A stretch of 64,000 nt of DNA, from the NCBI RefSeq assembly GCF_002003665.1, contig NZ_JATM01000003.1, positions 62,001 through 126,000 of the forward strand. Direction: 5' to 3'. Below the pieces are notes generated by a model. That model ran no database searches and was not told the DNA's origin. It saw nothing but the letters and a program-made list of their open reading frames with translations. Made by a program: the position numbers and the translations under genes. Below are positions 4,323-8,667 of this stretch, one piece after another (positions within the stretch are counted from its first letter, which is position 1; each line of letters begins with the position of its first letter). This stretch comes from Bombella intestini. Lineage in GTDB: Bacteria; Pseudomonadota; Alphaproteobacteria; Acetobacterales; Acetobacteraceae.

Positions 4323-5501
4323 TCATCCGGTTTGGGTGAGTGTCTGACGGGTAAGGGCATGGATAGTGCTCGTTTCCACTGCCCGGGCAATATCCTGCGG
4401 TCTGCTATGGCCAGCCTGCACTGTGATGTGAATGTTTGGGCTATGGGTGGTCGTATTATGGGTCGTGATATGGCGTGACCGAGGGGTAGCTTCAACATGC
4501 CTGACAAGCTGGGCAGCAGGCTGGTTAAAGGCTGACTTATTCGGGATGAAAGAGGAAGAGGTCGGGCTTGGATCAAGCTGCATCTGGGATAAGGTCTGCT
4601 CTGTATGGGTTAGAACTAGCGACAGACGTTTCAGCGGATTTTCCTGTTGTGCAGAGGAGACATTGCGTTCCCCTGATGTGGCCTCAATTAAATGAGGCGA
4701 CAGGGTAGACAGATGGGGCATGATTGGCTGAACCGGTGTGGATGTCTGCCCGCCAATGTCGTCACGAGGTGAAGAGGAATTACCCGGAGCGTGAAGGCCT
4801 AAAATGCTGGTAGGCTGATACGGTGCGGATGTCTGCCTGTTGATCTCGCCATGGGATGAAGAGGAATTACCCGGAGCGTGAAGGCCTAAAATGCTGGTAG
4901 GCAGACACGGTGCGGATGTCTGTCTGTTGATCTCGCCATGGGGTGAAAAGGAATTGCTCGGAGCATGGAGACCCAGAATGCTGCGGGCTGTCATCGTGGC
5001 AGAGAAACCTTGAAGGAGAGTGGCCGGGTCCGTTCTGGGGCGTGTTTTATCGCTCTGTCGTGCCTGAAGATGGAGGAAACGGGTCAGGGATTGTTCGGCA
5101 TTTTGCAGGGTTGGTTCTACTTCTTTCAGGGCCTGACGGGTGAGGCGATCCTTGTGCGCTAGCAGGGTGGACCAGTCCTGAGATGCTTGTGTTACGGGAA
5201 GTAATCCCATCTGGGGAGCCGGCCCTTGAAGGGCTGGCTTTTGTTCCGCATGTTCGGGGTATTCCCGGAAGGTGGGTGGCTCTGGTGCTGCTGTCAGGGC
5301 GGGAGGAGGTGTGTCGGTAACATGGGGGTCTGTTTTGTCGGTGTCTCTCCGGCCTGGATGGGCCAGAGAGCGTCCTCCCGTGAAAAGGGCTAAAGCCCCC
5401 ATGAGCTCTTGCCGGAAGGATGCAGCATCCTGCTCCCGGCGGGGCTGTGCTGGGAGGCCAAGCCGTGATGACTGGGCAATCATTGTATCAAGAATGGCCA
5501 T
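4323..5501 (-). CDS. putative short tape-measure protein with 29-residue repeats
   Basis: This 392-residue protein lies directly after the tail-assembly chaperone, the usual place of the tape-measure gene. Its C-terminal segment (IHITVQAG followed by a PQDIARAVE helix) matches the common C-terminal pattern of tape measures. It is short for the family (often over 600 residues) and lacks visible membrane segments. Residues 174-260 are three tandem 29-residue repeats beginning SILGLHAP, proline- and serine-rich. By the rule of about 0.15 nm per residue it would specify a tail near 55-60 nm; that is an estimate. It may be truncated or belong to a genuinely short-tailed particle. The start overlaps the end of the frameshifted chaperone. 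Confidence 0.5.
   Translation of the reverse strand: MAILDTMIAQSSRLGLPAQPRREQDAASFRQELMGALALFTGGRSLAHPGRRDTDKTDPHVTDTPPPALTAAPEPPTFREYPEHAEQKPALQGPAPQMGLLPVTQASQDWSTLLAHKDRLTRQALKEVEPTLQNAEQSLTRFLHLQARQSDKTRPRTDPATLLQGFSATMTARSILGLHAPSNSFSPHGEINRQTSAPCLPTSILGLHAPGNSSSSHGEINRQTSAPYQPTSILGLHAPGNSSSPRDDIGGQTSTPVQPIMPHLSTLSPHLIEATSGERNVSSAQQENPLKRLSLVLTHTEQTLSQMQLDPSPTSSSFIPNKSAFNQPAAQLVRHVEATPRSRHITTHNTTTHSPNIHITVQAGHSRPQDIARAVETSTIHALTRQTLTQTG
4722..4982 (-). repeat. three tandem 87-bp in-frame repeats
   Basis: The period is exactly 87 bases, seen by aligning GAGGAATTACCCGGAG-type segments at 4774, 4861 and 4948 on the + strand. Copies one and two (in + coordinates) are nearly identical over about 45 bases, and the third has diverged more. 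The period is a multiple of three, so the repeat changes protein length without breaking the frame. Confidence 0.9.
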
Positions 5502-5640
5502 TTATGCGCTCCACGGCCGCAACTTCCCAGAGAAGCCACATGTCTTCGCTGTCATAGAGGGTCTTTAGCTCATGCAATGTGGCTAACCCTGCATTGATGA
5601 CAAAAGCCATCGGGCTGGAGAGGTTTACGCAGCAGGCGGG
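5488..5640 (-). other. -1 frameshift extension of the tail-assembly chaperone
   Basis: A run of seven G on the + strand (5638-5644) reads C CCC CCG in the chaperone frame on the minus strand, a fitting X XXY YYZ slippery site five codons before the chaperone stop. Slipping back one base after codon 150 opens 50 further codons to a TGA at 5490-5488, giving a product of about 200 residues. The extension reads ATLHELKTLYDSEDMWLLW and resembles the C-terminal domain of gpGT-type chaperones. It ends 11 bases inside the tape-measure gene. An internal ATG (5610) has no ribosome site. Frameshifting here is established for the family; its use in this element is inferred. Confidence 0.7.
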
Positions 5641-6089
5641 GGGGCCTCGTCTGGCTGTGTCTCCCTCAGCAGGGCGATGAGAGGATAGATCTGGTAAATT
5701 GCGGCCTTGAAAAAATCCACATTCAGCCGAAAGGCCTCCGTCCGCAGGGCGGGTAATGTGTTGGGGTCTGTAATATCTGCCTCGATGAGCGGTGCAGGAT
5801 CAATGGCCCGGTTGTTAGGGTCCCGGCGAATTGTCACGCAGTCTAGCAGGCCAGAGAAAGCGCGGTCGCAGTCATCATCGCTCATATGGCCGAACAGGGC
5901 CATGCTTTGGCCGGAGAGACCAGCAATACCGCTTTGTAAGGCTTCCCGTGGTGTGTTGGCTCCAGCACGGGCGAGGGCACGGACAACATGCCGTGCCCAG
6001 CGGTCCGCTGTGAAGGCCGACATACGGGTAATGATAAAACATTTGCCCGCATCAGGGCCTTCCTGAGGGGTCCATTCGATGCTCTTCAT
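5625..6089 (-). CDS. phage tail-assembly chaperone (zero-frame product)
   Basis: The 154-residue zero-frame product lies between tail tube and tape measure, the conserved chaperone position, and would coat the tape measure while the tube polymerises. It is helical, begins KSIEWTPQEG and ends in a proline/alanine tail translated from the slippery C run. Its own stop at 5627-5625 comes shortly after that run, as in gpG of lambda-type pairs. AAGGCG precedes the ATG. Confidence 0.75.
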   Translation of the reverse strand: MKSIEWTPQEGPDAGKCFIITRMSAFTADRWARHVVRALARAGANTPREALQSGIAGLSGQSMALFGHMSDDDCDRAFSGLLDCVTIRRDPNNRAIDPAPLIEADITDPNTLPALRTEAFRLNVDFFKAAIYQIYPLIALLRETQPDEAPPPAA

Positions 6090-6101
6090 GGTGTGTTCGC
6101 C

Positions 6102-6545
6102 TTACAGGCCCGCGGGGAGGACATTTTCCCATGTGATGTTCACGCTTCGGTTGCCCAGCGTGGTGTCCCCTGCCGGAACAGGGTCATAATCTGTCAGACA
6201 GCCATTGGTGAAGGTAAAACGCCGCCCTAGCCCATGCAGCAGAAGCTCCCCGTTTAGTTCATATACTGTTCGAGCCTGTCGGGATGCCGTGGCTATGGCG
6301 TCAAAAACAGGTAGAGAACGGGATGCTGCCGAAAAATTGAGGGTCATGTGATAGGCCGAAGGGACAAACCCTTTATTGAGGCGGCCATCAATAGAGAGAC
6401 TGGTTGTGGCTAATTTCAGCTTCTGGGCCCCGCTCCAGCCATGATCTGTTGCCCAGTTTTCCAGTGTGATGGGGGCATTGAAAAGGGTTTTGACCGTGAG
6501 GGTAAAAACGGCGTCTGCTGATGTGATGAGTGCATTGCCGGACAT
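6102..6545 (-). CDS. phage tail tube protein (DUF3277-like)
   Basis: This 147-residue protein sits directly between the sheath and chaperone genes, as tube proteins do in contractile phages. It is beta-rich, consistent with the conserved tube fold, and matches the size of the DUF3277 family. It would form the inner channel through which DNA passes. It follows the sheath stop by three bases and shares the late operon. Confidence 0.75.
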   Translation of the reverse strand: MSGNALITSADAVFTLTVKTLFNAPITLENWATDHGWSGAQKLKLATTSLSIDGRLNKGFVPSAYHMTLNFSAASRSLPVFDAIATASRQARTVYELNGELLLHGLGRRFTFTNGCLTDYDPVPAGDTTLGNRSVNITWENVLPAGL

Positions 6546-6548
6546 GGT

Positions 6549-7718
6549 TTACTGAACCTCGATGGATGAGAGATGAATGGACTGGACCGACTGACCATCC
6601 GTGTACCAAAAGCGGCAGGGTGGGCTTTTTCGAGCGACCCGAATGTCTGCGGCTGCGGTGGAGGCATTGGGTTGGAAATACCAGCCACGGCTCTGTACCG
6701 TATCGCTGATGGTCGTGCCGGCACTCTGGTCGATTTGCTGCTTCTGAAGGGCTGTCAGGGTCACGCCAGGGCGGATGGCCCCGAACCGGAGTGCCTGGTT
6801 GATGGTGTCCTGCACGCAGGCAGAGATTAGCCCATCTCCGATGCTGTCATAAGGAATCTGCCCGGATTGCAGCAGAAGTGTTGTCAGGTCAGACTGGAAT
6901 GATGCATTGAGCCATACTTGATTGATATAGCTGTCCGCCCAGAGGAAAGAGCCGGATACATGTCCATCCTCCAGCCACTGGAAGCGTCCTAGCCCGTTGG
7001 CATAGGCTCCGTAAAAATTATAGCCATTGCTGCGGAGGGTGGAAGCCGTGATAGCATCGGTCACGCTGGGGGTTAGTAGTCCACTGCGGCGGAAGCATAG
7101 GTTTGTCCGGCCATTCGTAGCGCTGAAATCAAGGGAGGCCATCCACCCTAGGCAGAAAGATGCTGCTAGTGGGTCTTGGTAGAGCAGGGTCGTGCCGTCA
7201 ATATTCTGATTTTGCAACCATGTACCGAAGCTGGCACTGTTTTGGCTATTGAGAGCCTGCTTATCCGTATCCCATGGAACGTACCAATAACGGTCCGCTT
7301 TGCCAGCTACCCATGCGGCAAAGGCCTGTTTCTGTGCCAGGGTGGGCTCCCAAATCGTGGTGAAGCCGGTGAAGTCCTGGTTTTGGCTGGTGATTAGCTC
7401 CATTAGGCTGGTGGGGTCTGCCAAATGGGCGGGGTCTGCCATATGGATTAGCAGCGTAGCGGGTATTTGCGCAGCATCATCGTGGCTGGCGAAATAGACA
7501 GCCGCCATTCGGGCTTCCAGACTATCGGCTGGGAAGTCTTTTATAACGTCTGTCAGGGAACTGTATTGTTTTATCTGGCCCACACTCAAGGCAGCCGCAT
7601 CGGATGGTGTCGTAATGAGAAGCCCGTTCATGAAGGGAACGCTGTTTGCCGTGCCGAGTGTGGCAGGGTTGATGCTGACAGTCTGAGAAAGAGGGATGGT
7701 GCCGGTCAGGGAGACCAT
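6549..7718 (-). CDS. contractile tail sheath protein (DUF3383-like)
   Basis: The 389-residue product has the DUF3383 layout: an N-terminal segment with GLLITTPSDAA, a middle alpha/beta domain containing YWYVPWDTD and YNFYGAYANG, and a C-terminal domain. These proteins form the contractile sheath around the tube. Its presence marks the element as a myovirus-type particle. The ATG at 7718 has AGGA about 10 bases upstream. Confidence 0.85.
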   Translation of the reverse strand: MVSLTGTIPLSQTVSINPATLGTANSVPFMNGLLITTPSDAAALSVGQIKQYSSLTDVIKDFPADSLEARMAAVYFASHDDAAQIPATLLIHMADPAHLADPTSLMELITSQNQDFTGFTTIWEPTLAQKQAFAAWVAGKADRYWYVPWDTDKQALNSQNSASFGTWLQNQNIDGTTLLYQDPLAASFCLGWMASLDFSATNGRTNLCFRRSGLLTPSVTDAITASTLRSNGYNFYGAYANGLGRFQWLEDGHVSGSFLWADSYINQVWLNASFQSDLTTLLLQSGQIPYDSIGDGLISACVQDTINQALRFGAIRPGVTLTALQKQQIDQSAGTTISDTVQSRGWYFQPNASTAAADIRVARKSPPCRFWYTDGQSVQSIHLSSIEVQ

Positions 7719-7750: not shown

Positions 7751-8332
7751 TCAGGGAGCGGATGGCCGAAGGAAATTGGCCGTTGTGGCTTCTGTTATGG
7801 AGGCCAAACCAAGGGCTGTAGCGGTTTCGGTAGAGCGGGTTATGGAGGTCATCAGGATGAGATGCAGCGGCAGTGTGGCGGAAGATTCATACTGCTGCTC
7901 TGCATTGGTGAAATCCTGCTGCGTAAGAGGTCCGGTATCGCTGGGGGCTATGTCATTCCGTTTCTGTTGGAACCAAGCCACGGTTTGTCTATCCCGCCAG
8001 AGTGTGCTGATGCCTCCCAGCACTGTCAGGGCATCAGGGCCACGGGCAGTGAGCTGGATGGTTAGCTCTACAGGCTGGGAGATGGTGACACGCTCTGCGG
8101 TGTAATTGTGGTTGTTAGTGGCTAGCGGGCGGCGGGAGGTCACCTGCATGATAAGGTAGCTTGTCTGAGGTGTGGGGAGGCGGTTCTGTTGGCCTTGAAA
8201 CAGGTCCCAATCGGCAGGGAGAACCATTTCTTTAAGCCAGTCCCCCAGTAGCTGCATGACAGTGCTTTCCGTTGGTGTCAGTTGGTACTTTGCCGAAAGG
8301 GAGTCTGGCGTGTGACGATCAGGCGGCACCAT
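7751..8332 (-). CDS. phage neck/tail terminator protein (gp12-like)
   Basis: The ATG at 8332 is preferred (GGGGA 8 bases upstream), giving 193 residues; a GTG at 8374 is the alternative. The protein resembles neck terminators that cap the tube before head joining: an early helix, a YLIMQVTS strand, and the SQPVELTIQLTARG segment typical of such tail-completion folds. It overlaps the preceding gene by 55 bases and precedes the sheath gene. Confidence 0.65.
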   Translation of the reverse strand: MVPPDRHTPDSLSAKYQLTPTESTVMQLLGDWLKEMVLPADWDLFQGQQNRLPTPQTSYLIMQVTSRRPLATNNHNYTAERVTISQPVELTIQLTARGPDALTVLGGISTLWRDRQTVAWFQQKRNDIAPSDTGPLTQQDFTNAEQQYESSATLPLHLILMTSITRSTETATALGLASITEATTANFLRPSAP

Positions 8333-8667
8333 TGATTGGTTCCCCATTGTTCGAGAATTTTCGTGACGAGCCACTCCGATCCTTCAAAAAGGAGCGTATC
8401 GCCCCCTGTTTGCAACGGGCGGCTGAGGGTTTGGGCACTACCCTGCATGAAGATGGCCCGACTCTCCCCTTGTTGGGCGATATCGCCAATGAGTTGAAGG
8501 AGAGCAGCAGGGGCGGGCTGAATGGCGATCATCACCGGGATGTCTTCATAGAGCGGGGTTGTGCTGTAATCAGCGGCCAGTTGAGTTCCGGTCATCCGGC
8601 GTAGGTGGGCGGGCTGAAGCGGGTTGATGACGGATGTCATGGTACCGGCGAGAGAGAGGAGGTTCAT
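8278..8667 (-). CDS. phage neck-region protein, unknown function
   Basis: The 129-residue product lies between the DUF4054 connector and the terminator protein. In related phages this position is held by a small head-completion or collar protein of similar size, which is the best guess. The C-terminal half (EGSEWLVTKILEQW then CRLIVTRQ) looks like a small beta barrel. No ribosome site is obvious at the ATG. The late operon is interrupted just upstream by a + strand gene. Confidence 0.55.
   Translation of the reverse strand: MNLLSLAGTMTSVINPLQPAHLRRMTGTQLAADYSTTPLYEDIPVMIAIQPAPAALLQLIGDIAQQGESRAIFMQGSAQTLSRPLQTGGDTLLFEGSEWLVTKILEQWGTNQWCRLIVTRQTPFRQSTN

Follow-up and report, generated by a model that had tools for sequence, protein, structure and literature searches.

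The tail chaperone gene of phage lambda undergoes a -1 shift near its end, so that a longer, minor product carries an additional C-terminal domain (G/GT; PMC5009743); according to the same review, mature virions contain neither of the two products. A tail gene of phage P2 undergoes a -1 shift at TTTTTTG, where no hairpin was found (E/E+E'; PMC3091744). A report of 2025 predicts a -1 shift for the TAC-N and TAC-NC proteins of the Vandenendeviridae and Andersonviridae (phage Adele), with a conserved GTTTTT near the end of TAC-N and an uninterrupted -1 frame (PMC12846349).

Here we describe a tail assembly chaperone locus within a 64,000-nucleotide stretch of Bombella intestini DNA (contig NZ_JATM01000003.1, positions 62,001 to 126,000; hereafter referred to as the window). 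The prophage chaperone gene very probably makes two proteins, a short form of 154 aa and a long form of 200 aa, by means of a -1 slip at the heptamer T TTT TTC. A preliminary description of this locus had proposed a lambda-type -1 frameshift at another heptamer, a C run close to the chaperone stop; the shift within the chaperone is well supported by the comparisons below, but the C run did not stand as its site.

Results

The chaperone gene and its -1 frame extension

The open reading frame at 5625-6089 (minus strand; 154 codons, zero-frame stop at 5627-5625) encodes the short, gpG-like form of 154 aa and 16.9 kDa. Its match to the Pfam family Phage_TAC_15 lies just above the cut-off (E = 1.1e-4; 23.1 bits against a cut-off of 22), and it strongly matches phrog_1932, 'tail assembly chaperone' (2.8e-31); these two matches uphold the earlier identification of the gene. 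Upstream, on the same strand, are the genes for the tail terminator (7751-8374), the tail sheath (6549-7718; DUF3383, 1.6e-78; phrog_205 tail sheath, 2.8e-70) and a probable tail tube protein (6102-6545; Pfam E217_Gp32, 8e-16; phrog_1964 'virion structural protein', 1e-35; labelled 'putative tail tube protein' in a relative). The next ORF downstream (4323-5501, minus strand; 392 aa, ATG at 5501) occupies the tape measure position, at which four related records name a tape measure protein; the ORF had no match in Pfam, PHROG or NCBIfam. Three copies of an 87-bp unit lie within it, at 4726-4983, and such copies would alter the length of the product by 29-residue steps. The closest named relatives of the chaperone gene are in Bombella species (98% for B. 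favorum). The chaperone of Acetobacter phage phiAO1 shares 42% identity with that of the window; the paper on this phage reports particles with contractile tails, and its main text does not contain the word frameshift (PMC8566455).

The -1 frame remains open past the zero-frame stop, as the preliminary description had noted, and ends at a TGA (5490-5488) a short way into the next ORF; it encodes a conserved domain. Both the 51-aa -1 peptide counted from the C run (6.3e-11) and the 73-codon -1 stretch counted from T TTT TTC (6e-11) match phrog_3976, which places the extension far beyond chance. The 51-aa peptide also resembles, weakly (0.023), the end of the 170-position family phrog_18181, and 81 records of the phage collection encode a likeness to it at E values up to 1. 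Read from the predicted slip site, the -1 frame (5488-5709, minus strand; 73 codons plus TGA) comprises a linker followed by a conserved helical domain, as judged from phrog_3976, the alignments and an AlphaFold model.

A search for the extension in 209 loci gave 207 hits, representing 119 distinct sequences, of which 66 were non-redundant. Neither the heptamer and its codons nor the absence of stops served as a criterion for choosing loci. The 66 loci were, by contrast, chosen by their extension hits, which guarantees that they have the extension, and we therefore also counted from the chaperone side. Among 200 loci there were 203 chaperone ORF hits, and 199 of these have the extension downstream, always in the -1 frame (199/199); these counts are redundant, and some of the loci were found through the extension domain. 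The four hits without a detected extension are second copies in L016 and L038, together with L044 and L205. In L016 (2138-2539) and L038 (2174-2587), a second, diverged chaperone gene directly follows the first chaperone and its extension, and no extension was detected for either second copy. L044 (Acinetobacter phage Acjo_20) has a small hypothetical gene (2495-2656) in the place of a detectable extension after its chaperone homologue. In L205, a short fragment matched. As a separate observation, the zero frame of L023 reads on through the extension and beyond, as an open frame of 345 aa; its relative L024 has a stop.

A T TTT TTC heptamer conserved at the nucleotide level

The best-supported -1 site of the window is the slippery heptamer T TTT TTC at 5715-5709 (minus strand), which precedes the zero-frame stop by 29 codons and is read in the zero frame as GAT TTT TTC (residues 125-127). 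These codons, or variants of them, end an LHVDFF-like motif that is conserved across the homologues. A canonical heptamer is found at the D/G/S-F-F codons in 58 of the 66 non-redundant loci, as T TTT TTN in 53 and as G GGT TTN in 5. The list of 119 sequences includes one, L071, that was mis-anchored and was scored as being without the heptamer.

Codon choice at the motif departs from that elsewhere in the same genes. The first Phe codon of the 66 loci is TTT in 60 and TTC in 6, as compared with 58 TTT and 75 TTC (44% TTT) at upstream Phe residues. When Asp precedes this Phe, it is encoded by GAT in 37 cases and by GAC in none (163 and 190, respectively, for upstream Asp), and when Gly precedes it, GGT is used in 24 of 24 cases (60 of 284 upstream). 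At the second Phe, the wobble position of which is free, TTC prevails over TTT by 31 to 9; T is thus not preferred in general. The biased choice at Asp/Gly and at the first Phe thus indicates conservation at the nucleotide level and not only at the protein level. Quantitatively, 'T TTT' occurs in 31 of 34 representatives against 6.6 expected from the codon usage of each locus (P = 2.6e-24); this test covered 34 representatives of 43, with L050 left out because it had no anchor. The heptamer of the 58 loci stays on the motif even though the zero-frame stop lies anywhere from 8 to 48 codons downstream, and it does so in loci with short zero-frame tails (L041, L043, L045 and L049), where 7 or 8 codons separate it from the stop.

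The T runs of 6 to 8 nucleotides present at the site in 53 of the 66 loci would also suit slippage by RNA polymerase, in which a base added or removed would give the long form from an edited mRNA. However, 44 of these 53 loci have only 6 T, and runs of 6 T are shorter than those known to make RNA polymerase slip well; in addition, the five loci with G GGT TTN only are compatible with tRNA re-pairing and not with slippage on a homopolymer. We consider the chance of polymerase slippage to be very slight.

The canonical heptamer is absent from the motif in 8 of the 66 loci, which have GAT TTT AT- (three), TTC TTC (three), GCT TTT GTA (one) or a Nankokuvirus-type sequence (one, L209); in the latter, G GTT TTT stands five codons before the motif. 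A canonical site leaves the other seven of these eight unexplained. In L031, L038 and L186, where GAT TTT AT- replaces the heptamer, the -1 frame of the extension stays open. An A-rich stretch at the zero-frame stop of L031 and L038 might act as an alternative signal.

A stop-free overlap that begins at the T run

The segment between the heptamer and the zero-frame stop (5628-5708, minus strand) would be dual-coded, specifying the zero-frame C-terminal tail and the -1 linker. Among the 66 non-redundant loci, not a single -1 stop occurs in this segment, over a total of 1,923 codons. This count ends at the end of the extension, since the zero frame of L023 runs past it. Conservation of the -1 frame in homologues, a check that the preliminary description had put forward, is thus borne out. 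For 34 loci, 0 stops in 997 overlap codons compare with 32.6 expected, and none of 400 synonymous shuffles reached 0. When the last ten codons were excluded, the count over 29 loci (672 codons) was still 0, with 17.5 expected. The 30 codons that precede the heptamer in the 34-loci set contain 72 -1 stops, close to the 64.0 expected, and in 18 of the 66 loci a -1 stop precedes the site by less than five codons. The absence of -1 stops after the T run therefore suggests that the -1 frame is read from this point onward.

Substitution patterns in 11 Bombella-group sequences were examined along the same region. Codons 128-144 show mainly zero-frame third-position change (z3 0.353, z2 0.106), the last ten zero-frame codons show about equal values (z2 0.347, z3 0.337), and the sequence beyond the zero-frame stop has the pattern of the -1 frame (z2 0.300, z3 0.177). 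The -1 linker accordingly seems to be weakly constrained and yet kept open.

These data bear on the possibility that the extension is a small gene of its own, with either an independent start or re-initiation following the chaperone stop. It is annotated as a separate hypothetical protein in four of the related records, and the window has an ATG in the -1 frame 98 nt after the heptamer. Some -1-frame start codon exists in the tested stretch of 42 of the 66 loci, but one accompanied by a 4-base Shine-Dalgarno match exists in only 2 of the 66, consistent with the original remark that no ribosome site supports independent translation. Moreover, the ATG of the window is a Leu codon in some 75-80% relatives (L006, L012 and L013), and a separate gene would not keep stops out of the -1 frame all the way from the T run. 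We see hardly any chance that the extension is expressed in this way.

The C run near the chaperone stop

The site originally proposed, C CCC CCG at 5643-5637 (minus strand; GCC CCC CCG in the zero frame, with a 7-C run at 5644-5638), is present in the window, 5 codons ahead of the stop, and conforms to X XXY YYZ. A slip there would likewise produce a 200-aa fusion, in which the zero-frame residues 128-149 would be retained. The comparison with homologues, which the preliminary description had also called for, went against this site by that description's own criterion for refutation, homologues that lack the C run. In-frame CCCCCCN is found in 2 of the 119 distinct sequences, namely those of the window and of a distant relative, L083. 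The heptamer is already broken in a 98%-identical relative, which has CCT CCC CCG; relatives of 90-91% have GAC CTC CCG or GCC CAC CTG at this position, and no such C run is left in those of 75-80%. Around the C run of L011 (90% identical), the zero-frame sequence DEAPPPAA is changed to DGAHLPTA and the -1 peptide keeps RRGPPA. A slip at the C run would also leave the stop-free -1 frame upstream of it unexplained. We therefore judge the C run to be incidental and a slip at it to be highly improbable. With T TTT TTC supported over the C heptamer, the junction is predicted after codon 127 instead of at codon 150, and the -1-encoded part amounts to 73 codons from the T run, not to the roughly 50 codons given before.

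Both heptamers are canonical and in frame in the window, and both might work, T TTT TTC as the ancestral site and the C run as a recent, strain-specific extra, giving two long forms with different linkers. Peptides of the LNVDFFQGR type and of the ETQPDEAPPACC type would then be expected together. The C run has no comparative support, and we regard this combination as very unlikely; a slip at T TTT TTC by itself is the reading that we adopt below.

Possible stimulators of the shift

The window contains no stable stem-loop closely after the heptamer. Over the 66 loci, the 50-nt segment that begins 3 nt past the heptamer had a mean fold z of -1.05 (SE 0.18), with 19 loci below -2; the mean fold z of five upstream windows ranged from -0.26 to 0.32. 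In 21 of 59 loci, among them L067, L165, L032 and L013, a GCCGCC/GGCGGC stem starting 3 nt after the heptamer has 8-9 of its 9 pairs, with some swapped pairs. The sequence type of the window (L002) has 5 of the 9 pairs, and the stem is not formed in its clade. The mean number of pairs was 6.39, compared with 5.87 in synonymous shuffles (maximum of 300, 6.25). This stem may explain the better-than-shuffled folding in a sub-group, possibly as a lineage-specific feature, and we take it as suggestive because both of its arms lie in Ala codons and its excess over the synonymous shuffles is small.

We also considered a Shine-Dalgarno-like GGAGG at 5735-5739 (minus strand), 19 nt before the heptamer, as a candidate stimulator. 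Its spacing is kept in the window-type sequences and some others, and it is absent from many of the 34 loci; it was rejected as a general stimulator. A search of 5400-6200 for known RNA families returned none at E values up to 1.

Predicted products and their structures

From either heptamer the long form would have 200 aa, about 22 kDa, and the alternative products would differ only at residues 128-149. The predicted junction peptides are LNVDFFQGR for a slip at the T run and ETQPDEAPPACCVNLSS... for a slip at the C run.

The AlphaFold model of the 154-aa product has a mean pLDDT of 81, with a mostly confident core and residues 144-152 below 50; the slip codons lie inside a helix of this model (residues 111-134). 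The model of the 73-codon -1 part has a mean pLDDT of 82, with helices at 32-39, 45-51 and 55-70 and a less confident linker. Taken together, the two models suggest that the shift would swap a loose tail for a linker and a second domain.

Among predicted viral proteins, a Foldseek search with the chaperone model gave 6 matches at E <= 0.001. The top matches include a 'tail assembly chaperone protein' and AB1gp01, the latter, gp01 of Acinetobacter phage AB1, being the best structural match (E = 1.2e-6, 30% identity). Against the PDB, the chaperone model had no match at E <= 0.001 (the HK97 chaperone, 2ob9, appeared at E = 4.6), and the fold search with the extension gave nothing below E = 4.

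Discussion

Sequence comparison gives good support to a programmed -1 frameshift in this tail assembly chaperone, and likewise to placing the locus with the lambda G/GT and P2 E/E+E' kind of frameshifted chaperone. The homologues compared here show directly that the -1-encoded domain exists and is conserved, as is the heptamer, and that no -1 stop interrupts the overlap; the slippage itself, its frequency and the function of both forms we infer.

As in lambda gpG/gpGT, the predicted shift occurs late in the chaperone gene and adds a C-terminal domain to the long form. Unlike the lambda case, it would operate in a prophage of the contractile-tail type, on a U-run heptamer and with a 29-codon overlap; the slip site of lambda differs from a U-run heptamer. 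The resemblance to P2 E/E+E' lies in a T-run -1 shift in a tail gene with, in the window, no close hairpin. The P2 proteins have 91 and 142 aa, as compared with 154 and 200 aa here. The Vandenendeviridae offer a further link, as Nankokuvirus phages of this family combine a recognisable relative of the window extension with G GTT TTT, the motif published for the family. Adele itself is a lytic Pseudomonas phage with the GTTTTT motif, whereas the kin of the window mostly have T TTT TTN.

We propose that a single start would give rise to two proteins. Most ribosomes would terminate at 5627-5625 and release the 154-aa chaperone. A minority would slip back by one base on T TTT TTC at 5715-5709, their two Phe tRNAs pairing anew with TTT TTT, and would add 73 codons of the -1 frame after Phe127, generating the 200-aa form with its helical C-terminal domain. 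On the model of lambda gpG/gpGT, binding of the tape measure protein would fall to the domain common to both forms, and recruitment of tail tube subunits to the additional C-terminal domain.

It is conceivable, although we offer this only tentatively, that the slip site is anchored at an ancient Asp/Gly-Phe-Phe point around which the zero-frame tail and the downstream stimulator are replaced over time. The GCCGCC/GGCGGC hairpin would then be carried by some lineages and be missing from the Bombella clade of the window, and L031, L038 and L186 would have lost the heptamer and need another signal.

A search of the open-licence literature found no paper that ties a frameshift to DUF3383, Bombella or Bcep781, and TTTTTTC gave a Plasmodium paper. 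The present case illustrates that the slippery-looking heptamer nearest to the stop can mislead, as comparison with homologues led to a site 72 bases further upstream. None of 14 related phage records joins both frames in the stretch shown; public records thus overlook the frameshifted chaperone, the range of which the present case would widen to include these related phages and the prophages of acetic acid bacteria.
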